From: Cyclobacteriaceae bacterium
GTDB taxonomy: Bacteria > Bacteroidota > Bacteroidia > Cytophagales > Cyclobacteriaceae
NCBI GenBank assembly: GCA_021604845.1
Contig: BQJT01000011.1
Coordinates: forward strand, 1-44,813
Length of the DNA: 44,813 bases
Direction of reading: 5' to 3'
Made by a program: the position numbers and the translations under genes. Shown piece after piece: positions 22,329 to 37,885 of the stretch. Numbering within the stretch: the stretch's first letter is position 1; each line of letters begins with the position of its first letter. The notes below the pieces were generated by a model. It was given only the letters and a program-made list of their open reading frames with translations. It had not been told where the DNA came from and did not search any database.

Positions 22329-23663
22329 ATGAAAAACACCAGATACTACCGGAAATTCTTACTAATCACTCTGTCCACAGTGATTTCGCTATTTTACTGG
22401 TCTTGTACCAGAAAAGTAGAAAACAATATTGAAATAGACCCTGCTGAGGGTCCAAATCCCTGGACCAATCTCAATTGGAACAATAAATCGGAGAACTTTC
22501 AATTTGTAGTGGTCACCGATCGCACCGGAGGCAACAGGCCCGGTGTATTCGAACAAGGAATGGAGAAGGTGAATTTATTGCAACCGGAATTCGTGATGAG
22601 TGTAGGTGATTTGATTCAGGGTTATACAGAAGACCTGACTCAGCTTAATCAGGAATGGGACGAATTCGATAGCTTTGTCAACGGATTGACCATGCCGTTC
22701 TTTTACGTTGCAGGCAATCACGACATCACTAATAAAGTGATGGAAGATCTCTGGAAGCAGCGATATGGGCGCACCTATTATCATTTTGTTTACCAGGATG
22801 TGTTGTTTTTATGCCTGAATAGTGAAGAAGCTGTTCCGGAAGCGGGAAACCCTGATGGAAAATACCATACTGGCGATTTTTATCTCTCCGGACAACAGCG
22901 CAGCTATATAGAGGAAACACTAAAACAGCATGCCGGGGTACGTTGGACATTTGTTTTCTGGCACAAACCGGTATGGCTCTATGAGGAGGCTGACGATCCA
23001 TCACGCCGGGAAGAGGTATCTCAAAGCGGTTGGCCGGAAGTGGAGTCACTTTTAAAAGACCGAAAACATACAGTATTCGCCGGGCATATTCATCGCTATG
23101 TACACCGGAAACGTAATAACAGCGACTACATTACACTGGCCACTACCGGCGGTGGCAGCGCTTTGGCCGGGCCCATATTTGGGCAGTTCGACCATGTTTT
23201 GTGGGTAACCATGACCGATGCCGGGCCAGTGATGGCCAACCTGATGCTGGACGGTATCTTTGACGAGAACTTCGATAAGCAGGATATCGAAAAGCACCTG
23301 GCACTTACCATGCAAAACAATGTTTTACGAATTGACAGCAAGTTGAACAAAGCACAACTTACTGATCATCATCAGGTTAAACTGACCTTATTCAATGACC
23401 TTGACAATCCCGTAGAGGGGGTGGTTCAGTTGACCAATAGTGACTTTATCACCTATTCGAATAACACCCTATCAACTTCGATACCGCCAAATAGTGCGGT
23501 TTCGCTGGAGGTTGAATTGTCGATTAAACCCAGTGCGGATTCCGTTGCAAATGAGCAGCTGAAGCAGGAAATTAACCGGCAATATGCCCGGTGGGAGCTT
23601 ACCTATGCGTTCGAACAGTACGGTAAAATAGAAGTCACAGGCAACACCAGGTTGTATCCATGA
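22329..23663 (+). CDS. Calcineurin-like metallophosphoesterase, lipoprotein
   Basis: The ATG at 22329 gives MKNTRYYRKFLLITLSTVIS and a lipobox ending YWSC (Cys26); the longer frame begins at TTG. The 444-residue protein has metallophosphoesterase motifs: GDLIQG (Asp94), AGNHD (Asn130-His131), a late FWHKP and AGHIHRYVH. The first motif, normally DxH, reads VVTDRTGG with Asp64 but Thr instead of His. This variation is also seen in related secreted phosphatases I recall as carrying DRTGG, so activity is still likely. The last 130 residues form a beta-rich extra domain. It is the first of two exported phosphoesterase genes preceding the sensor kinase. Confidence 0.83.
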   Translation: MKNTRYYRKFLLITLSTVISLFYWSCTRKVENNIEIDPAEGPNPWTNLNWNNKSENFQFVVVTDRTGGNRPGVFEQGMEKVNLLQPEFVMSVGDLIQGYTEDLTQLNQEWDEFDSFVNGLTMPFFYVAGNHDITNKVMEDLWKQRYGRTYYHFVYQDVLFLCLNSEEAVPEAGNPDGKYHTGDFYLSGQQRSYIEETLKQHAGVRWTFVFWHKPVWLYEEADDPSRREEVSQSGWPEVESLLKDRKHTVFAGHIHRYVHRKRNNSDYITLATTGGGSALAGPIFGQFDHVLWVTMTDAGPVMANLMLDGIFDENFDKQDIEKHLALTMQNNVLRIDSKLNKAQLTDHHQVKLTLFNDLDNPVEGVVQLTNSDFITYSNNTLSTSIPPNSAVSLEVELSIKPSADSVANEQLKQEINRQYARWELTYAFEQYGKIEVTGNTRLYP

Positions 23664-23737
23664 TCATAATATTACGCACCAGCTCCTATTTTTCGAATAC
23701 TGGTTTCAAAGTTATTTTAGTCCATTAATTTGACAAT

Positions 23738-24670
23738 ATGTCACCTGTAAATTATCGCTACACCATCCATCGGCGCAGATTTCTGAAAGTCTCCGCCATA
23801 GCTACCGCCGGCCTTTGTATCCCGCTAAATGTTAGGTCCCAGGCAAACTTACAAACAGTAAGGTTTGGCCTGGTAACAGATTCCCACTATGCAGACCGGG
23901 ATCCCCTTGGAACCCGCTATTACCGGGAATCACTGACTAAAATGAAAGAGTTCATCCAGGTGATGGAAAATAATAATGTGGATTTCATAATTCACCTGGG
24001 TGATTTTAAGGATCAGGACCCGCAGGAACAGCAGTCGGATACGCTTAGGTACCTTACCAGTCTGGAAAATATTTATACCCAATTCCAGGGCCCCACCTAC
24101 CATTGTGTAGGGAATCACGATGTAGACAGCATTACCAAAGATCAGTTTCTACGAAATGTTACCAATACCGGAATTGACCAGAACCGAAGTTATTACTCCT
24201 TCGATCATCATAGTTATCACTTTGTAGTACTGGATGCCAATTATCATCCGGACGGCAGGGATCACTACTATAAAGAAGGGGCTGACTGGCAGAAAACCCA
24301 CATTCCTCAAGAGCAGTTGGAATGGTTGCGCAGGGATCTGCAGCAAACCAAACGGCCAACCGTGATCTTCTGTCATCACCCATTATATCCTTTCCCCGAA
24401 CTACAGCATACCATGCAGGTAGGTAATTATCAGGTTGTTCAGGAAATCCTGGAAAATTCCGGTAACACGTTGGCGGTATTCCAGGGACACGTTCACCGGG
24501 AGCATCATCATGAATCTCAGGGTATTCACTACCTCACCCAACTTGGGATGGTTGACTATAGTGGCTTAGATAACAACAGTTTCTCAATAGTTGAGATTAA
24601 AGATGCCACTAGTGTGGTAATTTCAGGTTATAAAAGGGTTTCAGATCAGCAATTATCAATTGGATCCTGA
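23738..24670 (+). CDS. Calcineurin-like metallophosphoesterase, Tat-type signal
   Basis: The 310-residue protein begins with a twin-arginine-like signal (HRRRFLKVSAIATAGLC, then a cut near VRSQ). The metallophosphoesterase motifs are complete: DxH as Asp48 and His50 (LVTDSHYAD), GDFKD with Asp89, GNHD with Asn126-His127, FCHHP and QGHVHREHHH. It is related to but distinct from the phosphoesterase at 22329, which uses the lipoprotein route. Substrates may be phosphomonoesters, phosphodiesters or nucleotides. The stop codon lies eight bases before the kinase ATG, so this enzyme is very probably co-transcribed with the two-component genes. Confidence 0.9.
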   Translation: MSPVNYRYTIHRRRFLKVSAIATAGLCIPLNVRSQANLQTVRFGLVTDSHYADRDPLGTRYYRESLTKMKEFIQVMENNNVDFIIHLGDFKDQDPQEQQSDTLRYLTSLENIYTQFQGPTYHCVGNHDVDSITKDQFLRNVTNTGIDQNRSYYSFDHHSYHFVVLDANYHPDGRDHYYKEGADWQKTHIPQEQLEWLRRDLQQTKRPTVIFCHHPLYPFPELQHTMQVGNYQVVQEILENSGNTLAVFQGHVHREHHHESQGIHYLTQLGMVDYSGLDNNSFSIVEIKDATSVVISGYKRVSDQQLSIGS

Positions 24671-24678
24671 TTTTTAAT

Positions 24679-26361
24679 ATGAAAAGTATCCGGGTGTGGA
24701 TGATGTGGCTGATCAGCCTGATTGTAGTCATAGTAATTGTAGTGATCTCGCTGTTTTTCTATCACCAGTTTCGCCAGGCGCTGGATGAAAGAATGCTGTT
24801 GCAGCTCAGTTCTATTATGCATCTGAAAAGTTTGCAGATTGAGGATTATGTTCAGACACAGCTAAAACAGTTCGACCAGCTCGAACCTCCCCTGCTTTCC
24901 GCATTCGATGATTACCAGGTAAATAACCTGGATTCTGTTTGTATTGGAGAGATCATTGGTGCTGAGCATACCCCAAAACTTTACGATCTTTCCTGGTGCA
25001 GTCTGAATAAATCAGTACTACTGGGGGTAGTAAAGCATGATGAACAGGGAGTTAGACTGCACTTATTAAACCATAAAACAATCCAGGAAATTCTGCTGGA
25101 GCGCACCGGTATGGGCGAGAGTGGTGAAACTTACCTGGTGGGAGCCGACCATACCATGCGATCACTTTCCAGGTTTTTCCCCGATGAGCATCCGCTAAAC
25201 TTGCCTGCAGCAACCGATGGAGTACTCCAGGCGCTTTCCGGTCGACAGGGCAGCGGAATTATTAAAGATTACCGGGAGGTTCCTGTCTACAGCGCTTTTC
25301 GTAAACTGAATATACCGGGGATCGACTGGGTAATTTTGTCGGAAATTGATGTGGAGGAGGTAACCATTCCCTTGTCACGAATGCGCAACAAGCTGATCCT
25401 TATTTCTATTGCAGTATGCCTGATGGCCATAGTATTATCCTTATTGGTAACCAATCTACTGACCAGGCCGCTTTTTAGGATGAGGGACTTGTTGCGGCGT
25501 ATGTCCCTGGGCAAATTCGACCTGGTATCGACCCCATATTACCAGACGGTTGAAATTCACGAAATGTTCACTGCTTTGGACGAGCTGAGAAAATCCATAA
25601 ATCAAGCCATTCAGTATTCGTCTGAAATAGGTAATATGAACCTTTCTGCCCAATATCAGTTATCCGGACAGCATGATGAATTGGGCAAATCCCTGATCAG
25701 AATGAAGTCCCAGCTTGCCGAATATAAACGGCACGAAAAGACCAGTCACCAGGTTGCCAAAAGATCTTTAATCACCGGTCAGGAAAATGAACGTAAAAGA
25801 CTGGCCAGGGAAATGCACGATGGATTGGGACCGTTACTTACCAGTCTAAAGCTTACGATCCAGGCACTGGATTTGGATTCGATCCAGCGTAAAAAGGTAA
25901 ACGGCTTGATCGACCATACCATAGCTGAAATCAGGCGGGTCACCTATGATCTGATGCCTCCTGCCCTGTTGGATTTTGGAGTAGGCCGGGCTATGTTGCA
26001 CTTTGTTGAAATGATTCGAAAGTCCAGTGAGCTGGAAATTCGATATGATGATTCCACCAAAGAAAGCGGGTCAGCTATAAGTCCTGAAATGAATATATGT
26101 CTATTCAGAGTGTGCCAGGAATTATTGCACAATGCCATAAAACATTCAGGTGCAACCAGAGTGGCTCTCTCAATTACCGAATTTGATGAAAAGGTTTCCT
26201 TGTACTACTCCGACAACGGGCGGGGTTTTGACACGGATAAGCCGGGTAGCGGGTCAGGTTTGAAAAATATTGAGGAACGAATAGCGGTATTTGATGGATA
26301 TATGCATATTGCTTCCTCTGATAACGGCACTACTGTTGAAATTGAACTTCCGATTCTATGA
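24679..26361 (+). CDS. Sensor histidine kinase with periplasmic Cache-like domain (NarX/DesK-type HisKA_3)
   Basis: The 560-residue protein has membrane helices at about residues 8-29 and 238-260. They enclose a periplasmic sensor of about 200 residues containing GMGESGETYLVGAD (144-157), a hallmark of Cache-type ligand domains. A HAMP-like segment and linker follow. The HisKA_3 motif ENERKRLAREMHDGLGPLLT has phospho-acceptor His380. The ATPase domain has Asn485 (LLHNAIKHS), SDNGRGFD and GSGLKNIEERI. The gene overlaps the response regulator by four bases and lies eight bases after the Tat-signal phosphoesterase gene. The ligand could be a product of the neighbouring phosphoesterases; this is only an inference. 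Confidence 0.92.
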   Translation: MKSIRVWMMWLISLIVVIVIVVISLFFYHQFRQALDERMLLQLSSIMHLKSLQIEDYVQTQLKQFDQLEPPLLSAFDDYQVNNLDSVCIGEIIGAEHTPKLYDLSWCSLNKSVLLGVVKHDEQGVRLHLLNHKTIQEILLERTGMGESGETYLVGADHTMRSLSRFFPDEHPLNLPAATDGVLQALSGRQGSGIIKDYREVPVYSAFRKLNIPGIDWVILSEIDVEEVTIPLSRMRNKLILISIAVCLMAIVLSLLVTNLLTRPLFRMRDLLRRMSLGKFDLVSTPYYQTVEIHEMFTALDELRKSINQAIQYSSEIGNMNLSAQYQLSGQHDELGKSLIRMKSQLAEYKRHEKTSHQVAKRSLITGQENERKRLAREMHDGLGPLLTSLKLTIQALDLDSIQRKKVNGLIDHTIAEIRRVTYDLMPPALLDFGVGRAMLHFVEMIRKSSELEIRYDDSTKESGSAISPEMNICLFRVCQELLHNAIKHSGATRVALSITEFDEKVSLYYSDNGRGFDTDKPGSGSGLKNIEERIAVFDGYMHIASSDNGTTVEIELPIL

Positions 26362-26990
26362 CTAGTATCAATATTGCAATCGTAGATGACCATCAACTTT
26401 TCAGGGATGGCATTCATTCATTATTGGCAGCTAATGATCAATATCGGGTGGTTATCAGCGCCAGTAACGGGACGGAATTTTTTGAATCGCTGGCTTCAGG
26501 TGTTAAACCCGATATAGTATTGCTGGACCTTACCATGCCGGAAATGGATGGCTTTGAAGTAATGCAAAAATTAAAAACAGCCTATCCTCATATTAAAACA
26601 ATTGCACTTTCGATGCACGATGATGGCAATTACATCACAAAAAGTGTTAGGAGCGGCGCTTATGGGTACCTTTTGAAAAATACCGATGAGGATGAGTTGT
26701 TGTCAGCTATTCAATCTGTTTACCGGGGGAGAAAATATTTCAATCAGGAGATTACCGGAAAAATGATCAATAACCTGTCAGCTGAGTCCGAAACCAAAAA
26801 ACTGTCAATCAAGGAAAAGGAAATTTTAAAAATGATCTCTGAAGGATTAATTACCAAAGAGATTGCAGACCAACTTTTCATAAGTACCAGAACAGTTGAA
26901 ACCCACCGGGTCAATATTATGAAGAAGCTGAATGCAAAAAATACCGCTGAAATGATTAAAAAAGCAGTTCTAACTGGCCTATTGGAATGA
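26358..26990 (+). CDS. NarL/FixJ-family response regulator
   Basis: The 210-residue protein has a receiver domain with acidic pocket Asp10-Asp11, phospho-acceptor Asp57 (VLLDLTMPEMDG), Ser85 and Lys107 (YLLKNTDED). A LuxR-type helix-turn-helix follows (about residues 145-205: LSIKEKEILKMISEG, TKEIADQLFISTRTVETHR). All key residues are present. The ATG overlaps the kinase stop (ATGA), so the two form one unit. The dyad 13 bases after its stop has the 7-2-7 spacing typical of NarL targets, which suggests that the regulator controls the downstream secreted-protein gene. Confidence 0.96.
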   Translation: MTSINIAIVDDHQLFRDGIHSLLAANDQYRVVISASNGTEFFESLASGVKPDIVLLDLTMPEMDGFEVMQKLKTAYPHIKTIALSMHDDGNYITKSVRSGAYGYLLKNTDEDELLSAIQSVYRGRKYFNQEITGKMINNLSAESETKKLSIKEKEILKMISEGLITKEIADQLFISTRTVETHRVNIMKKLNAKNTAEMIKKAVLTGLLE

Positions 26991-27002
26991 GTTTGTCAAT
27001 AC

Positions 27003-27020
27003 ATCCGTATAAATACGGAT
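27003..27020 (+). promoter_or_regulatory. Perfect 7-2-7 (8-2-8) dyad, candidate response-regulator operator
   Basis: ATCCGTATAAATACGGAT is a perfect inverted repeat: arms ATCCGTAT and ATACGGAT around AA. A pair of heptamers two bases apart is the classic NarL arrangement. A TATATTTA at 27047-27054 (seven of eight to TAnnTTTG) would place its centre about 48 bases before transcription start, a usual activator position. No T run follows, so a terminator is less likely. Confidence 0.6.
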
Positions 27021-27090
27021 CCTCCGCCTAAGTATTTTCTACTATATATATTTACCGTTTTTCTTAGAGAATCCAGCATCTGTTTATGTC

Positions 27091-27126
27091 GTTTATTTGG
27101 TTACGAAGGATTGTATTCAAATAAAC
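27091..27126 (+). promoter_or_regulatory. Leader hairpin of the GPxAKN gene
   Basis: GTTTATTTG (27091-27099) and CAAATAAAC (27118-27126) are perfect inverted repeats separated by 18 bases, ending 13 bases before the ATG at 27140. The structure could be an mRNA stabiliser, a translation control element or a second protein-binding site. Confidence 0.45.
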
Positions 27127-27139
27127 AAACTCAGAACCG

Positions 27140-27463
27140 ATGAAAAGTATAGTAATATTAGCTGCATTTGTTGTATTCAGCACCATGGGTTATGCACAGA
27201 CAAAACATCAAAAAGGGCCTGCGGCTAAAAATCACCAGCGTTACTATACACAAGCCACTACGGTAGCAACTACCGACCAGAAGCCGTTTCAGGGGCCAGC
27301 AGCTAAAAATACCATGATCCGGAAATCTGACCAGTCCTATACCATAAACCCGGTGGAAACCAATGCCAACCAACCCAGGCTCATGGGTCCGCAAGCTAAG
27401 AATGCTGAATCCTGGAAAAAACACCGGGCAGCTGGCGCCAGAGTAAAAGCGCCGGCAAATTAG
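27140..27463 (+). CDS. Small secreted protein with three GPxAKN motifs
   Basis: The 107-residue protein has a signal peptide (MKSIVILAAFVVFSTMGYAQ, likely cut after residue 20). The mature chain of 87 residues contains GPAAKN at 26-31, GPAAKN at 52-57 and GPQAKN at 83-88. Each is preceded by Gln or Leu/Met and followed by a polar stretch; repeat spacing is 26 and 31 residues. The remainder is basic and low in hydrophobic residues, so a disordered or surface-binding protein is likely. I cannot name a described family. It follows the two-component genes, with the 7-2-7 dyad and a leader hairpin upstream, so it is a good candidate output gene of that system. Confidence 0.7.
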   Translation: MKSIVILAAFVVFSTMGYAQTKHQKGPAAKNHQRYYTQATTVATTDQKPFQGPAAKNTMIRKSDQSYTINPVETNANQPRLMGPQAKNAESWKKHRAAGARVKAPAN

Positions 27464-28467: not shown

Positions 28468-29559
28468 TTAAACAGTATAAAGGGCAATTTCCTGTTGCTT
28501 GCCGCGAAGTATCATTTCCCCTATTTTCCTGGTTGAAAATTGATGCAGCTGCCCACTTAACCGTTCGATTAGGTCACTGGATAACAATATGTTTACCTTT
28601 AGTTCATTACATTTTTCCTGTATTCGGGCGGTAGTATTAAGCACATCCCCGGAAAAAGCAATTTCACGTTTGACCACACCTAATTCACCCGCCATAACAA
28701 ATCCATAGTGAAGGCCGGCCTTAAATTCAGGAACAATGTTATCGTATAAAGCCCTGTAATAATTTTCCTTTTTTCTTAAAGCCTCCTTAATATCAAAAAA
28801 GCAATTTATGCAATTTGCTTCCGCCACTCCGCGATCCATAGTCCAGCTTATTACCATTTCATCGCCTACATATTGATAGATTTCTCCCTTTGAGTTAAGA
28901 ATTGCCGGTGTAGCGTGTTGAAAAGTGTCTTTTAAGAAATTGAAATAACGCTGCTCTCCTAGCTTTTCAGCAATGGTAGTAGAGGACCTTAAATCAAGAA
29001 ACATAAAAATTCGCTGCTCCCGCTTGGGTTTAAAGTATCTACCTAATAAAAAGTCTAGAAAAACTCCCGGGCCATACTTATCATTGACCAGTAAGAATAT
29101 AAGGGTGCCCAACACAACGATTAACCAAAACAGATAACTGGTCAAAGTAGGCAGGTCAAATATACCAAGTATCTCAGTCCTCCATAGTACAGGATCATAG
29201 AATGGTATTTGGTTTTCAGCGCTGCTTACAAAAATTGAAGCAGTAACTGCAACTAATAAAAATATAATGGAGTATGACCAAAGAATGTTCAGCAGGCTTC
29301 GACCATAATTCCTGGTTCTAAGCCATTTCTCCCAGAATAAAACCATAAAAGTGCCCCCAAATGCCCCTGCCAAAATACCTACCATAAGACTACCCTTAAA
29401 GTAAATCCAGGGATGCAGGTCCGAGGTATCCCGCTCTAGTTCTATTAAGCCGACATAAGTAATTATAAAGTGAAAAGTGGAAATGAATGTCCAGGCAATG
29501 GTAATCCATAAGATCCTGGAAAGTTGAGATTTGGTTGCTTGGGAAAATAAATTGGCCAT
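28468..29559 (-). CDS. Membrane-bound class III nucleotide cyclase (copy 2)
   Basis: The 363-residue protein is a paralogue of the cyclase at 12693-13838. Membrane helices lie near residues 17-40, 55-76, 90-112 and 138-158. The cyclase domain begins after REQRIFMF. Asp189 (FMFLDLRSS) and Asp233 (YQYVGDEMVISW) bind metal; Asn308 and Arg312 (GDVLNTTARIQ) are present. Lys297 fits the base-recognising Lys but Ala301 replaces the partner Asp. Cys250 and Cys253 (NCINCFF) repeat the CxxC of the other copy. The shared blocks include RIFMFLD, SST-IAE-LG, RYF, GE-YQY-GDE and CFF. It lies upstream of the DUF6528 gene on the same strand. Confidence 0.86.
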   Translation of the reverse strand: MANLFSQATKSQLSRILWITIAWTFISTFHFIITYVGLIELERDTSDLHPWIYFKGSLMVGILAGAFGGTFMVLFWEKWLRTRNYGRSLLNILWSYSIIFLLVAVTASIFVSSAENQIPFYDPVLWRTEILGIFDLPTLTSYLFWLIVVLGTLIFLLVNDKYGPGVFLDFLLGRYFKPKREQRIFMFLDLRSSTTIAEKLGEQRYFNFLKDTFQHATPAILNSKGEIYQYVGDEMVISWTMDRGVAEANCINCFFDIKEALRKKENYYRALYDNIVPEFKAGLHYGFVMAGELGVVKREIAFSGDVLNTTARIQEKCNELKVNILLSSDLIERLSGQLHQFSTRKIGEMILRGKQQEIALYTV

Positions 29560-32366: not shown

Positions 32367-35300
32367 ATGATTCAACGAATCATCACTTTTTCTATTCAGA
32401 ACAGGCTGGTAGTGGCGGTATTTACTCTTGCTATTTTAATTGCCGGTATTTGGAGTATTGGCAAGGTTCCCATAGACGCGGTTCCGGATATCACCAACAA
32501 CCAGGTTCAGGTGATCACCCAGGCGCCTAATCTCAGTACTGAGGACATCGAACAATTTGTTACCTATCAGGTAGAACTTGCGATGTCAAATCTTCCCGGG
32601 GTACTTGAAATAAGATCTATTTCACGCTTTGGTTTATCAGCGGTTACCATAGTATTTGAAGATGGTATGGGAACCTATCTGCCGAGACAGTTGGTGGCGG
32701 AAAAACTGGAACAAATTAAGTCAGACATCCCGGAAGCCTTTGGAAGTCCGTTTATGGGCCCGATTACCACCGGGCTGGGTGAAATTTATCAGTATACCCT
32801 GGAAGTGGACAGCGCCTATCGCGATCAATATTCTCTTTACGATCTCCGAAGTATACAGGATTGGATTATTCGCCGACAAATGGCCATGGTGCCCGGGGTT
32901 ATAGAGGTCAATGCTTTCGGAGGAATGATTAAGCAATATGAAGTAGCGGTCAACCCCTACCAGCTAAATGCCATGGGCCTTACTACCGAGGATGTTTTCC
33001 GTGCTCTGGAGCGCAATAACGAGAATACCGGTGGAGCCTATATTGAATATGATCACCGGGCGAATTATATCAGAGGCGAAGGGATAATTAAAAGCCTGAA
33101 GGACATTGAGAACATTGTAGTACGGAATATCAAAGATGTACCGGTGCTGATCAAGGATGTAGCTCAGGTTGGTTTGGGGCACGATGTACGGTACGGGGCA
33201 TTTACCCAGGATGGCACGGGTGAAGCCGTAGGTGGCATTATCCTGATGTTAAAAGGAGAGAACTCTAAGGAGGTGATTATGCGTGTAAAGGAACGCATGA
33301 CAGAAATTCAAAACTCCCTCCCCGATGGAGTATCCATTACACCTTTTCTCGACCGCAGTGAGTTAATCAATAACACCACCTCAACGGTTCAGAAAAATCT
33401 GGCTGAAGGTGCATTGATTGTAATCTTTGTTCTGGTGTTTTTGCTGGGAAACTGGAGGGGTGGTCTTATCGTAGCCTCGACCATACCACTATCACTGCTG
33501 TTTGCCTTTATCCTGATGAACGCTTTTGATGTCTGGGCAAACCTAATGAGCCTGGGAGCGATTGATTTTGGAATAATTGTAGATGGTGCGGTAATTATCG
33601 TTGAAGGCACGGTATATATTTTGCACCAGAAGCTGGTAAAAAAAGAACTGGTAACTCCCCAGGTACAGGTTGAAACGGCCGGCATTGCCGCCAATAAAAT
33701 GATGAATTCCGCTTTTTTCGGACAGTTGATCATTCTTATCGTATTTCTGCCAATTCTGGCTCTGGAAGGTATCGAAGGTAAGATGTTCAAACCAATGGCG
33801 CTCACATTTATGTTTGCAATGATTGGGGTAATGATTTTGTGTCTGACCTATGTACCTATGATGTGCTCATGGTTCCTGAAGGCGGATAGTTCCGGATTAT
33901 CATTGGGGAACAATTTAGTATCCTGGTTAGAAGAGAAGTACCAACGCACCCTGGGAGTGGTATTGAAATCAGGCATCTGGCTGGTAATCGTTTCTGTATT
34001 GCTATTAGTTATGTCAGGTTTCTTATTCACCAGACTTGGTGGTGAATTCATCCCCCGTCTTGATGAAGGTGATATTGCTTTCCACGATATTCTGAAACCA
34101 GGAAGTGCATTAGAGGAAGCAATAAAAGTAACCACCCAGGTGGAAAATGTATTGCTGGACGAGTTCCCGGAAGTGGACCGGGTCTTGAGCCGCATTGGCG
34201 TTTCGGAGGTTCCAATCGATCTGATGCCAATGGACGTTGCGGACTGCTATATTAAGCTTAAACCCAGATCCGAATGGACTACTACTGATTCCAAAGAAAA
34301 ATTAATAGAGCGCATCAAATCCAGGTTGGAGCAGATACCCGGGGTTACCTATGAATTTACCCAACCTATCGAAATGCGCTTTAATGAGTTAATGACAGGG
34401 ATCCGTCAGGATGTGGCGATTAAAATCTACGGGGAAGACCTCAATATTCTGGCAAATAAAGCGGACGAAGTAGCCAGCCTTGTTGCCGATATTGAAGGCG
34501 TTGGCGATTTGAGGGTCGAAGCCACCGAAGGCCAACCGCAGATTTCTATTAACTATGATCGTAACAAACTGGCATTCTATGGTATTGATATTGCCGACCT
34601 GAATCAGTCGGTCAAGACTGCTTTTGCGGGAAGGAAGGCAGGTGTGGTATTTGAAGGCGAGCGAAGGTTTGACCTGGTGATCAGATTGGAAGATCGCTTC
34701 CGGTCGGAGTTGCAGGATGTAAAAAAACTGCTGGTAAGCCTGCCTTCAGGAGCACAGGTGCCACTTGACGAGATTGCAGCTATTGGCTACAAATCAGAAC
34801 CCATGCAAATCAGCCGGGAAGGCACAAATCGCCGGACCTATGTGGGCATAAACGTACGGGGAAGGGACATCAAATCACTGGTTGAAGAAATCGAAGGGGT
34901 TTTACAGGCTAACCTTGAACTCCCCCCCGGGTATTACATCAGGTATGGTGGGGCGTTCGAAAACCTTGAACGGGCCACCGAAAGGCTTCAGGTGGTAGTC
35001 CCTGTTTCATTGGTATTGATATTTATCCTGGTATTTCTGGCATTAAGATCATTTAAACAAACTATTATGATTTATATAGCTATTCCCCTGTCCGCTATCG
35101 GAGGCGTACTCTCACTGTGGATCAGGGATATGCCCTTTAGCATTTCTGCAGGGATCGGGTTTATCGTTTTATTTGGTGTGGCGGTATTAAACGGATTGGT
35201 GTTAATCAATGGATGGAACGATCTGAAAAGCCACAGTAAACTCTCTCTGAGCGACAGGGTTGTTCAGGGGGCCAAACGAAGGTTGAGGCCCATTTTACTA

Positions 35301-36689
35301 ACGGCATCTACCGATATATTGGGTTTTCTGCCTATGGCGCTATCTAAAACTGCAGGTGCAGAAGTTCAGCGGCCGCTTGCTACCGTAGTAATTGGAGGTA
35401 TGATTACCGCAACGCTGCTTACACTGTTTCTGCTACCGGTACTGTACCAGTGGATTGAAAAAAGAAGGGGGCCTGTAGGAAAGCCATTGATGGTTTCGCT
35501 GTTGCTGGGACTTATGATTTGTACTCAACCCCTGGCCGCACAGCAACAGCCTGCTGAAACACCATTGGCTATTGATCAGGCAGTAGCTATAGCGATAGCA
35601 CGCTATCCTGAAGTGAATATGGCAAAATTAAATATTCAGAAGCAAGAACGCCTGAAGAAGACCAGCTGGGATTTTGGGAGAACCGGGGTTTTTACCGCAG
35701 CTGAAGAGCAGGGTGATGCAGACCTTGGAGTAAATACTATCGTGGGCTTTCAACAACAAAACATCGATCTTTTTTCTGCTCCCGCCAAAAATAAACTGCA
35801 AATGGTACAGGTGGATATCGCCAATACAGAAACGCAGTTGACCATCCGGCAGTTGACCAGGTTAATTAAGAACAGCTACGCGGAGGCTTTTGTGGCAAAA
35901 GAGAGAAAAGCATTGCTGGAGCAAATAGATTCGATTTACCGGGACTTTGAAAAAGCGGTGGAACTTAAATATCAGGTGGAAGAATCTTCAGGTTTGGAGC
36001 ATTTAGCTGCAGTCAACCAGTCCCGGGAAATTAGCATACAAAAGGACCAGGCACATTTTGATTATGTAATTGCGCTCAACAACCTGAACAAGTGGCTTTT
36101 GAGTGATACACTATTTACCGTTACCAAAGGTGACGGGCAGTGGTTAGAACCTGATAAAGCCACTGATTATGATGTGAACCTTCACCCCGAATTACAACTG
36201 GCCCGTGACCGGTTGGCCTTAACTGAGCAAAAACTAACCGTACAGAAAGCCGGTTATTTGCCTAAACTAAACCTGATGTATGGGATACAGGAAGTAAACG
36301 GTATTGATGGTTTTTATCAATATCAGGCAGGATTGTCTTTCCCACTAATTTTTAATAGTCAACAAGGTAAAGTACAGGCGGCCAGAATAGACCAGGAAAT
36401 TTCCAGGCAAGACCTGGTGAAACGTTCAGTTGAATTGAAAACCCAACTTAATTTGGCTACCGCCAATTATCAGAAATGGCTGGCCAGTTGGCAGTATTAT
36501 CAGCAGCAAGCTGTGGTATCTGCCAGGAAACAGTTGGATGGAGCGACCCTCTCCTATCAAGAGGGGAATATCGATTATATATCATTTCTACAGCATACAC
36601 ATACAGCAATAGAAATCGAATTAAAAGGCCTGGAGGCAATGGGAAATTACCTGCAAGCTAAGTTTTATCTAGAATATTTGTCAGAATAA
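32367..36689 (+). CDS. CzcA/CusA-family metal-efflux RND pump fused to TolC-like outer-membrane protein
   Basis: The 1440-residue protein has an RND pump (about residues 1-1035) and a TolC-family part (about 1060-1440). The pump has the 12-helix plan. Its proton-relay motif DFGIIVDGAVIIVE gives Asp400, Asp406 and Glu413, the same spacing as Asp402, Asp408 and Glu415 of CzcA, and points to Zn/Co/Cd-type rather than Cu/Ag substrates. At the junction residues 1039-1059 read KPLMVSLLLGLMICTQPLAA followed by QQQ, a typical Sec signal with an AAQ-like cut. The TolC part has coiled-coil helices (KLNIQKQERLKK, LEYLSE at the end). CzcA-TolC fusions are known in Bacteroidota. The adaptor gene follows after 11 bases. 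Confidence 0.93.
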   Translation: MIQRIITFSIQNRLVVAVFTLAILIAGIWSIGKVPIDAVPDITNNQVQVITQAPNLSTEDIEQFVTYQVELAMSNLPGVLEIRSISRFGLSAVTIVFEDGMGTYLPRQLVAEKLEQIKSDIPEAFGSPFMGPITTGLGEIYQYTLEVDSAYRDQYSLYDLRSIQDWIIRRQMAMVPGVIEVNAFGGMIKQYEVAVNPYQLNAMGLTTEDVFRALERNNENTGGAYIEYDHRANYIRGEGIIKSLKDIENIVVRNIKDVPVLIKDVAQVGLGHDVRYGAFTQDGTGEAVGGIILMLKGENSKEVIMRVKERMTEIQNSLPDGVSITPFLDRSELINNTTSTVQKNLAEGALIVIFVLVFLLGNWRGGLIVASTIPLSLLFAFILMNAFDVWANLMSLGAIDFGIIVDGAVIIVEGTVYILHQKLVKKELVTPQVQVETAGIAANKMMNSAFFGQLIILIVFLPILALEGIEGKMFKPMALTFMFAMIGVMILCLTYVPMMCSWFLKADSSGLSLGNNLVSWLEEKYQRTLGVVLKSGIWLVIVSVLLLVMSGFLFTRLGGEFIPRLDEGDIAFHDILKPGSALEEAIKVTTQVENVLLDEFPEVDRVLSRIGVSEVPIDLMPMDVADCYIKLKPRSEWTTTDSKEKLIERIKSRLEQIPGVTYEFTQPIEMRFNELMTGIRQDVAIKIYGEDLNILANKADEVASLVADIEGVGDLRVEATEGQPQISINYDRNKLAFYGIDIADLNQSVKTAFAGRKAGVVFEGERRFDLVIRLEDRFRSELQDVKKLLVSLPSGAQVPLDEIAAIGYKSEPMQISREGTNRRTYVGINVRGRDIKSLVEEIEGVLQANLELPPGYYIRYGGAFENLERATERLQVVVPVSLVLIFILVFLALRSFKQTIMIYIAIPLSAIGGVLSLWIRDMPFSISAGIGFIVLFGVAVLNGLVLINGWNDLKSHSKLSLSDRVVQGAKRRLRPILLTASTDILGFLPMALSKTAGAEVQRPLATVVIGGMITATLLTLFLLPVLYQWIEKRRGPVGKPLMVSLLLGLMICTQPLAAQQQPAETPLAIDQAVAIAIARYPEVNMAKLNIQKQERLKKTSWDFGRTGVFTAAEEQGDADLGVNTIVGFQQQNIDLFSAPAKNKLQMVQVDIANTETQLTIRQLTRLIKNSYAEAFVAKERKALLEQIDSIYRDFEKAVELKYQVEESSGLEHLAAVNQSREISIQKDQAHFDYVIALNNLNKWLLSDTLFTVTKGDGQWLEPDKATDYDVNLHPELQLARDRLALTEQKLTVQKAGYLPKLNLMYGIQEVNGIDGFYQYQAGLSFPLIFNSQQGKVQAARIDQEISRQDLVKRSVELKTQLNLATANYQKWLASWQYYQQQAVVSARKQLDGATLSYQEGNIDYISFLQHTHTAIEIELKGLEAMGNYLQAKFYLEYLSE

Positions 36690-36700
36690 ACTATAAACCA

Positions 36701-37885
36701 ATGAAAGCATATAATATTTCAGCAGTAGTAAAGTTGATGGCACTGTCAGTAATTATTTTCGGGTGTAAGCAAACACCGCCTCATGATCATCAAGAAGCCA
36801 GTCAGCAGGCATCCAGCCATGGGGAGCATGTGGTGTTGAGTTTATTGCAGTACCAGGCTCTGGGAATGAGCGTAGATACCCTGCCAAAACGGGCAATGGA
36901 GGGATTTGTGGAAACTAATGGCCAGCTGATTTTGCCACCCCAAAGTCAGGCTGCAGTCACCACAGTTATCGGAGCGAACATACAGAGTGTGGACGTAATT
37001 GAAGGTAACTGGGTAGAAAAGGGCCAGATCCTGGCAAAATTATATCATCCGGATTTAATCACTTTGCAAACTGAATACACTTCAAGCGTAAACCAATTGG
37101 ACTACCTTGAACAGTCGTATGCCAGACAGGAAAAGCTATACGCGCAGTCCGTGTCTGCCGGAAAGGACTTTCAAAAAATAAAAGCGGATTACTTATCGAA
37201 AAAAGCCACGGTAAATGGGCAGCTGGCGCAACTTAAATTATTGCACATCAATGCGGATAAAGTAAAGGCCGGACATATCTATGAAACGGTGGCTTTAACC
37301 GCCCCAATTGATGGTTACATTCAATCGGTAAATGTGCGTACCGGTCAGTTTGTTGCGCCCTCGGAAGTGCTATTCGAAATCGTGCGTACCGACCATATTC
37401 ATGCTCACTTCAAAGTTTTCGAAAGCGATATCAATAAGGTCAAGGAGGGCCAAACCGTCCACTTTATGGTAGAATCACAGCCGGAGACCCAACGCGAAGC
37501 CACGATTTTTGCGGTCGGAAAAGTTTTCGAATCAACCTCAAAGGCAGTTAACCTTCATGCAGAACTGGATAACAAAATGGGCACCTTGCTGCCGGGAATG
37601 TATGCCAGGGGTCGCATAGTGACAGGGAGCGAACGTACATTGGTGCTTCCGAAAGATGCAGTGGTGATGGATGGAGAACGCCACTTTATTTTCCAGGCAG
37701 AAGAACACCCTCAGTCTGGTGAATGGCACTTTTACCCCAAAGAAATAAGTACCGGACTGGTTGACGATAACTGGGTGGAAGTAAAGCCTCACCACGAAAT
37801 TGACAGTGACATGCTGTTTGCCTGGAACAACGCTTATTACTTATTGGCTGAAATGCAGAAGAGTGAAACTGAGCACCATCACTAA
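36701..37885 (+). CDS. CusB/HlyD-type periplasmic adaptor lipoprotein of the metal-efflux pump
   Basis: The 394-residue protein starts MKAYNISAVVKLMALSVIIF with a lipobox ending IFGC (Cys22), anchoring it to a membrane. A His-rich stretch (residues about 27-45) follows, then the adaptor core: a barrel-sandwich domain (VTTVIGANIQSVDVIEGNWV), a short coiled-coil hairpin (LEQSYARQEKLYAQSVSAGK), ALTAPIDGYIQSVNVRTGQF and the beta-barrel domain (FKVFESDINKVKEGQTVHF). The C-terminus ends SETEHHH, another possible metal-binding tail. It joins the inner-membrane pump to the TolC part of the preceding gene, from which it is 11 bases away. The set of pump, outer channel and adaptor is complete. Confidence 0.92.
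   Translation: MKAYNISAVVKLMALSVIIFGCKQTPPHDHQEASQQASSHGEHVVLSLLQYQALGMSVDTLPKRAMEGFVETNGQLILPPQSQAAVTTVIGANIQSVDVIEGNWVEKGQILAKLYHPDLITLQTEYTSSVNQLDYLEQSYARQEKLYAQSVSAGKDFQKIKADYLSKKATVNGQLAQLKLLHINADKVKAGHIYETVALTAPIDGYIQSVNVRTGQFVAPSEVLFEIVRTDHIHAHFKVFESDINKVKEGQTVHFMVESQPETQREATIFAVGKVFESTSKAVNLHAELDNKMGTLLPGMYARGRIVTGSERTLVLPKDAVVMDGERHFIFQAEEHPQSGEWHFYPKEISTGLVDDNWVEVKPHHEIDSDMLFAWNNAYYLLAEMQKSETEHHH

Follow-up and report, generated by a model that had tools for sequence, protein, structure and literature searches.

A putative two-component module with a small secreted GPxAKN-motif protein in Cyclobacteriaceae and other Bacteroidota

Two-component systems of the NarX/NarL and UhpB/UhpA type combine a HisKA_3 and HATPase_c kinase with a GerE-type regulator and palindromic operators, NarL sites being 7-2-7 palindromes. 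CpxA-CpxR, a two-component system whose kinase and regulator classes differ from the HisKA_3/NarL type, has a small exported protein, CpxP, among its targets. The locus described here occupies positions 22329–27463 of a 44,813-nucleotide stretch of Cyclobacteriaceae DNA (contig BQJT01000011.1 of assembly GCA_021604845.1, genome G000), which as a whole is called the window below, and it contains genes for two metallophosphoesterases (MPE1 and MPE2), a sensor kinase, a NarL-type regulator and a small exported protein with repeated GPxAKN motifs. It resembles the NarX/NarL and UhpB/UhpA-type systems in kinase domains, regulator class and operator form, but it has a Cache sensor, its output belongs to an unnamed secreted protein family, and its kinase and regulator fall under every NCBIfam equivalog cut-off among the matches listed. 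As in CpxA-CpxR, a small exported protein is among the proposed targets; unlike CpxP, the GPxAKN protein is modelled with low confidence, is probably disordered and is also found without a kinase.

It is proposed, with a probability of about 0.78, that the kinase and regulator, together with the operator and the GPxAKN gene, make up a self-contained two-component module with a narrow regulon and a new secreted protein family. The kinase and regulator are ordinary in their class; what is new lies in the output family, together with the operator and the neighbouring genes. No paper on the GPAAKN motif was found, and none among those listed dealt with a system like the present one. An earlier note on this DNA had treated all five genes as one phosphoesterase-coupled unit. 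The open reading frames (ORFs) lie where it placed them and a real conserved regulatory module is present, but its left border was drawn too far upstream: conserved synteny holds for the kinase, regulator and GPxAKN gene and fails for the phosphoesterases.

Conservation of the module and its operator

In the window the kinase gene (24679–26361, + strand) overlaps the regulator gene (26358–26990, +) by 4 bp, and the GPxAKN gene (27140–27463, +) follows. Regions of up to 20 kb were fetched around kinase and GPxAKN matches, and distinct loci were counted after dereplication on a 60-residue GPxAKN core (120 loci reduced to 97), which was also used for the operator counts. Among 196 genomes of the family, the kinase is matched in 40 at an expectation value (E) ≤ 1e-40, the window's own genome included, while 73 genomes match the GPxAKN protein at E ≤ 1, often weakly. 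A regulator is called beside the kinase in 35 of the 37 family loci with a called kinase, and GPxAKN motifs lie ≤1.7 kb downstream in 26 of these 35 (rows dropped: L089, kinase ORF not called; L090 and L098, adjacent regulator not called). A scan of named genomes by the GPxAKN alignment alone, blind to the kinase, gave 79 loci from the best 80 of 94 matches, and a kinase and regulator stand upstream in 28 of them, with no other labelled gene between in 27 and an exchanger gene between in L233. The 28 loci come from Cyclobacterium, Reichenbachiella, Fulvivirga, Marinoscillum, Flexithrix, Lewinella, other Saprospiraceae, Flavicella, Wenyingzhuangia, Ochrovirga, Carboxylicivirga, Labilibacter and some metagenome-assembled genomes, covering several Bacteroidota families; several blind-scan loci duplicate loci of the first set, and the kinases of L219 and L198 are cut or frameshifted. 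Because kinase and regulator recur upstream in loci fetched blind to them, and in several families, the kinase, regulator, dyad and GPxAKN gene are regarded on comparative grounds as a conserved module. About 7 kb past the first set, L206 (14810–15499) carries a second GPxAKN gene, along with a site similar to the operator (2 mismatches) and a fragment resembling the regulator (45 bits), which looks like a duplication of the module.

The proposed regulator-binding site (27003–27020, strandless) begins 12 bp past the regulator stop and is the dyad ATCCGTATAAATACGGAT, with halves and spacer ATCCGTAT-AA-ATACGGAT; the dyad had been described as 7-2-7, and its presence was borne out, but its geometry is a perfect 8-2-8. 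When the 380 bp before the first GPxAKN motif were scanned at ≤3 of 16 mismatches, with first-order shuffles (40 per gene) as expectation, the dyad was found before 34 of the 47 distinct GPxAKN genes whose fetched stretch also contains a kinase, in 13 cases perfect (shuffle expectation 0.12), and before 3 of the 53 whose stretch contains none (shuffle expectation 0.03). These three, L205 (G154), L109 (G195) and L112 (G180), are all in kinase-bearing genomes; the contig of L112 ends inside the regulator, so that it represents a kinase locus divided between two contigs, and L205 and L109 are true distant copies. That the GPxAKN gene is the output, as had been suggested, is indicated by the conservation of the dyad.

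Across whole genomes, the strict pattern TCMGTAWWWWTACKGA occurs in 20 of the 23 genomes with a close kinase compared with 28 of 173 others (Fisher p 1.7e-11). The regulon is called narrow, with the GPxAKN gene as its one main target, because exactly one strict site is present in 11 of the 23 close-kinase genomes, and it stands at the GPxAKN gene in 10 of them and at an exchanger gene in one (G165). In G000 the strict pattern occurs once, at the window's GPxAKN promoter. Another 15 kinase-bearing genomes were scanned; a match is present in 10 of them, and, judged by position, 9 of the 11 sites there are GPxAKN operators. Relaxed matches (≤3 mismatches) in G000 number 34, compared with 15 for a control pattern; of the 15 relaxed-match loci fetched, all lie inside ORFs except the window's own site and a site in L131 with 3 mismatches, and no additional target is proposed on this basis.

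By its placement, the site travels with target genes and not with the 3' end of the regulator gene, since it is found at tandem GPxAKN genes, at exchanger genes that follow the regulator, and at bestrophin and exchanger genes located far away. In L064 (7329–8369) two GPxAKN genes stand in tandem, each with a separate dyad; one dyad is perfect and the other departs from the consensus at 3 positions. Na+/H+-exchanger genes preceded by the operator are found directly after the regulator (L070, L071, L079 and L082), near the kinase (L064 and L066) or elsewhere (L174), and bestrophin genes preceded by it are found in G154, G195 and G124. Exchanger identity was tested with Pfam in L064, L070, L079 and L174 and assigned by similarity in L066, L071 and L082, and bestrophin identity was tested in L167 and L173 and assigned by similarity in L168. 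Exchanger and bestrophin channel genes with the same operator occur in Reichenbachiella and relatives.

Several observations weigh against this reading. No GPxAKN motif lies within 1.7 kb in 9 of the 35 family loci, 2 of them at contig ends, and the next gene in L070, L071 and L082 is a Na+/H+ exchanger. The window's dyad alone is at chance level, 796 kb of control DNA (40 arbitrary 19.9-kb regions) holding 33 perfect 8-2-8 dyads of any sequence and 1 strict site; it is the conservation that counts. A site within 3 mismatches is missing from 13 of the 47 linked GPxAKN genes (7 have 4–5 mismatches and 6 have 6–7), and these genes belong to divergent kinases, where a different operator is our guess. 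The strict site also occurs in 23 of 156 genomes without a kinase match, inside an ORF in four that were looked at (G040, G067, G153 and G194), and it is found inside ORFs in the kinase genomes G091, G093, G123 and G163 as well, so some matches are noise. Finally, the 45 linked loci include 4 with an exchanger gene close to the GPxAKN gene, hardly more often than in control regions (2 of 40), and only the shared operator ties exchangers to the module.

Operator variants were also seen. Six Flavobacteriaceae loci (L208, L216, L220, L226, L229 and L241) keep the gene order but appear to have a half-changed operator, with the right half CACGTA instead of TACGGA, possibly a natural operator drift. 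In the divergent kinase clade of L084, L085, L091 and L096, TTACGTATTTTCCACAT-like intergenic elements stand in place of the dyad, and the recognition helix of the regulator reads HRSRIMKKL or HRGKIMKKL, not HRVNMMKKL. G074 (L185 and L186), with no kinase at E ≤ 1e-40, has 13 strict matches, and 3 of the 4 looked at fall outside ORFs; a further NarL-type regulator that recognises a similar site is possibly present there.

Sensor, regulator, promoter and output protein

The kinase is predicted to consist of a transmembrane segment, a Cache-type sensor (residues ~35–230), a second transmembrane segment, a HAMP-like region below the Pfam cut-off, HisKA_3 (40.2 bits, cut-off 24) and HATPase_c (41.1 bits, cut-off 26.4), the last two passing. 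In the regulator, the receiver (Response_reg, PF00072, 95.6 bits, cut-off 30.2) and the helix-turn-helix (GerE, PF00196, 69 bits, cut-off 23.5) both pass, in keeping with the NarL/FixJ type. Against NCBIfam equivalogs, 23 of 23 kinase matches are below cut-off (e.g., UhpB, 105.6 of 408 bits), as are all of the best 25 of 120 regulator matches (e.g., NarL, 136.8 of 250 bits); the two-component equivalogs not reached include NarL, UhpA/UhpB and MctS/MctR.

No Pfam family matches the window kinase's sensor region at E ≤ 0.01, so in that respect the assignment as a Cache kinase, made earlier from the sequence, found no support on this protein; it was upheld by structure prediction. The AlphaFold2 model of the sensor has a predicted local distance difference test score (pLDDT) of 87.4 and a predicted template modelling score (pTM) of 0.77, and it matches the Cache sensor PctA with Foldseek (E 1.1e-7) and, with VIA, both 8w7p, a sensor-kinase extracellular domain (Z 15.2, root-mean-square deviation (rmsd) 2.8, 186 residues), and Tlp1 (Z 14.8, rmsd 3.7, 190 residues). 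In addition, dCache_1 is found by Pfam in 8 of 30 kinase orthologues. In the model, then, the sensor folds as a Cache domain, with a conserved core ERTGxGxxGExYxV...DYR in its proximal half; compared with the two complete Cache modules of dCache_1, its membrane-distal part is short, variable and partly of low model confidence. It shares its fold with the dCache receptors PctA and Tlp1 and differs from them in its size of ~190 residues, its short, variable distal part and its proposed output, which is transcription and not chemotaxis. In a kinase tree of 51 rows families are intermixed, and the window's kinase groups with those of Lewinella and Cyclobacterium (fork support 89/95, not starred), which suggests horizontal spread of the kinase.

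A 12-sequence promoter alignment contains an invariant TTTCTTAGA and a CGTWTAWTTG element. In the window, the second conserved promoter element is TTACCGTTTTTCTTAGAG (27052–27069, +), and a candidate −7 box, TTTATTTG (27092–27099, +), lies inside CGTWTAWTTG, one mismatch from TAnnTTTG, the flavobacterial −7 box consensus given in PMC9723704. Among 10 listed exact matches of TTACMRNWTTTCTTAGAG in the 196 genomes, 7 are at GPxAKN promoters of kinase-linked loci, and one-mismatch matches are at control level; TTACC..TTAGAG was rejected as a general promoter element, its exact matches being rare and mostly at GPxAKN promoters. The dyad centre, measured by hand in the window and L067, is ~55–90 bp upstream of the candidate −7 box, a spacing that would suit activation.

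The mechanism may be pictured as follows. The membrane kinase would read an extracytoplasmic small-molecule signal through its Cache domain, as the model and its structural matches indicate, and, judging from its domains, would phosphorylate the NarL-type regulator encoded by the overlapping gene. The regulator would bind ATCCGTAT-NN-ATACGGAT, to which its conservation points, and from the position of this site upstream of the likely −7 box would most likely activate the GPxAKN gene. The proposed output protein is small and exported, mostly cationic and probably disordered, and carries about three GPxAKNxKPW motifs. Both the direction of regulation and the function of the protein are what we infer.

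The window's GPxAKN protein has a signal peptide by eye, two GPAAKN motifs (27215–27232 and 27293–27310, +) and one GPQAKN motif (27386–27403, +). It has no Pfam or NCBIfam match at E ≤ 0.1, 33 members gave scattered weak matches only (best E 0.0017, in one member), and a PDB sequence search gave nothing better than E 0.24. Its structure model (pLDDT 62.5, pTM 0.23) is consistent with a probably disordered chain. By a loose pattern, the 97 distinct members have three motifs in 76 cases, two in 17, one in 3 and four in 1; their median length is 81 from just before the first motif, their net charge has a median of +10 (range −2 to +25), and 94 lack cysteine. A phylum-wide search with the GPxAKN alignment, in which 12 first-look candidates per genome were scored, gave matches at E ≤ 0.001 in 8 of 395 genomes, 4 of them in the window's family; the GPxAKN family is sparse in the phylum at large.

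Possible role of the GPxAKN proteins

No kinase lies within 6 kb of 52 of the 97 distinct GPxAKN loci. An ammonium transporter is found at 24 of these, a BBP2 porin at 24, glutamine synthetase at 2 and none of the three at 27; the 45 kinase-linked loci have an ammonium transporter in 3 cases and glutamine synthetase in 3, and none of 40 control regions has transporter, synthetase or porin at >100 bits. Because kinase-less GPxAKN genes are often near an ammonium transporter or porin, and a few times near glutamine synthetase or glutaminase, it is tentatively proposed, at somewhat less than even odds, that the output may serve nitrogen or ion handling at the envelope. This link consists mainly of one gene order common to Algoriphagus, Echinicola and relatives, with a few separate cases, such as L232 (glutamine synthetase, glutaminase, transporter, GPxAKN) and L200 (GPxAKN with glutamine synthetase, porin and transporter), and no nitrogen gene stands beside the window's own locus; both points count against such a role. 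GrtK-GrtR of Burkholderia glumae, a two-component system reported in PMC12918730 to sense external ammonia, is compared here for the ammonium-transporter context only, not for homology.

The operators before Na+/H+-exchanger and bestrophin genes would equally fit the same module with a job in ion, pH or osmotic homeostasis rather than nitrogen. This version is rather unlikely: such targets are seen in a few genera, and among the 52 kinase-less GPxAKN loci 24 have an ammonium transporter and none has an exchanger. Less probable again is feedback of the GPxAKN protein on the kinase of its module, as a CpxP-like accessory or autocrine signal, to which the protein's export, its position adjoining the kinase and its standing as an often main target would be suited, as would repeated short motifs in a probably disordered chain, which fit multivalent binding. 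However, more than half of the distinct GPxAKN loci are the kinase-less ones counted above, and 13 family genomes have a GPxAKN match (E ≤ 1e-3) with no kinase match (E ≤ 1e-40), so the protein has a use without the kinase. A broader picture, speculative and placed between these two in likelihood, is that GPxAKN proteins are a new secreted multi-copy linear-motif class in the ammonium and amino-acid economy outside the inner membrane, perhaps gathering a porin or uptake machinery, that a kinase-regulator pair which spread horizontally and has a regulon of nearly a single site evolved to switch them, and that the protein may report back to the kinase.

Other genes lie near the module. The window has an adenylate/guanylate cyclase gene near the GPxAKN gene (28468–29559), and at 32367–37882 an ORF for a 1440-aa RND pump with a fused outer-membrane efflux domain, behind which stands an HlyD gene. 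A 1444-aa ORF with a pump-like start lies downstream of the GPxAKN gene in the sister species G046 (L061, 423–4757), where a stretch weakly similar to the window's cyclase gene (29% identity) lies upstream of the kinase (L136, 2675–3307).

The upstream phosphoesterases and the border of the module

MPE1 (22329–23663, +; Metallophos PF00149, 43.8 bits, E 5.3e-11) and MPE2 (23738–24670, +; 52.5 bits, E 1.1e-13) are exported calcineurin-like phosphoesterases that pass the Pfam cut-off of 21.5, and both are probably bystanders. MPE1 had been called a lipoprotein, and its candidate lipobox (Cys26 in SLFYWSC) is weak by eye; MPE2 had been assigned to the twin-arginine translocation (Tat) route, and its start, RRRFLK, is twin-arginine-like, but TAT_signal scores 15.9 bits, below the cut-off of 22.7. 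MPE2 is weakly similar to the cyclic-nucleotide phosphodiesterases SpdA and CpdA (55.2 of 400 and 28 of 225 bits, below the equivalog cut-offs), yet it falls outside the module.

The suggestion that these enzymes produce or remove the ligand that the kinase senses drew on the adjacency of MPE2 and kinase on the same strand, the kinase starting 8 bp past the MPE2 stop, and on the ability of Cache sensors to bind small molecules. In the window's genome MPE2 and the kinase may share a transcript. A search at >100 bits found MPE1 or MPE2 within 6 kb in none of the 45 other distinct kinase-linked GPxAKN loci (0 of 45), a count in which some loci end close upstream of the kinase and a few cases could not be judged; L086/L247 has an MPE2-like gene of 34 bits ~4.5 kb from the kinase. 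MPE1 was sought in the fetched loci, and MPE2 also in the 196 family genomes, 27 of which match it at E ≤ 1e-25. The kinase, too, is matched at E ≤ 1e-40 in seven of the 27 (G000, G046, G012, G028, G100, G125 and G161), and the two genes are adjacent only in G000; in the six others MPE2 lies elsewhere, 0.29–4.8 Mb away on one contig (G012, G028 and G161) or on a different contig (G046, G100 and G125). The sister species G046 has no phosphoesterase in the available 2.4 kb upstream of the kinase start, and by eye the genes 5' of the kinase vary by clade. In L202 and L206 the kinase is preceded by amidohydrolase-like, Tat-like genes; these were considered as MPE2 analogues and set aside, since by eye they do not resemble phosphoesterases. 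Phosphoesterase coupling, rejected on synteny, is very improbable, and gene order indicates that the phosphoesterases are probably chance, lineage-specific neighbours.

Least probable of all is that the dyad is merely a regulator terminator or chance palindrome, as its position only 12 bp past the regulator stop and the frequency of perfect 8-2-8 dyads (33 in 796 kb) might suggest, since it recurs letter for letter across several families and stands before genes far from the regulator, and no T-run was seen after it by eye.

With the kinase, regulator, operator and GPxAKN gene read as one module, an unnamed secreted protein family is given a regulator, a well-defined operator and a functional context that can be tested. 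It can also be seen that a two-component regulon of Bacteroidota would be largely readable from sequence, with one 18-bp site and one main target across several families.

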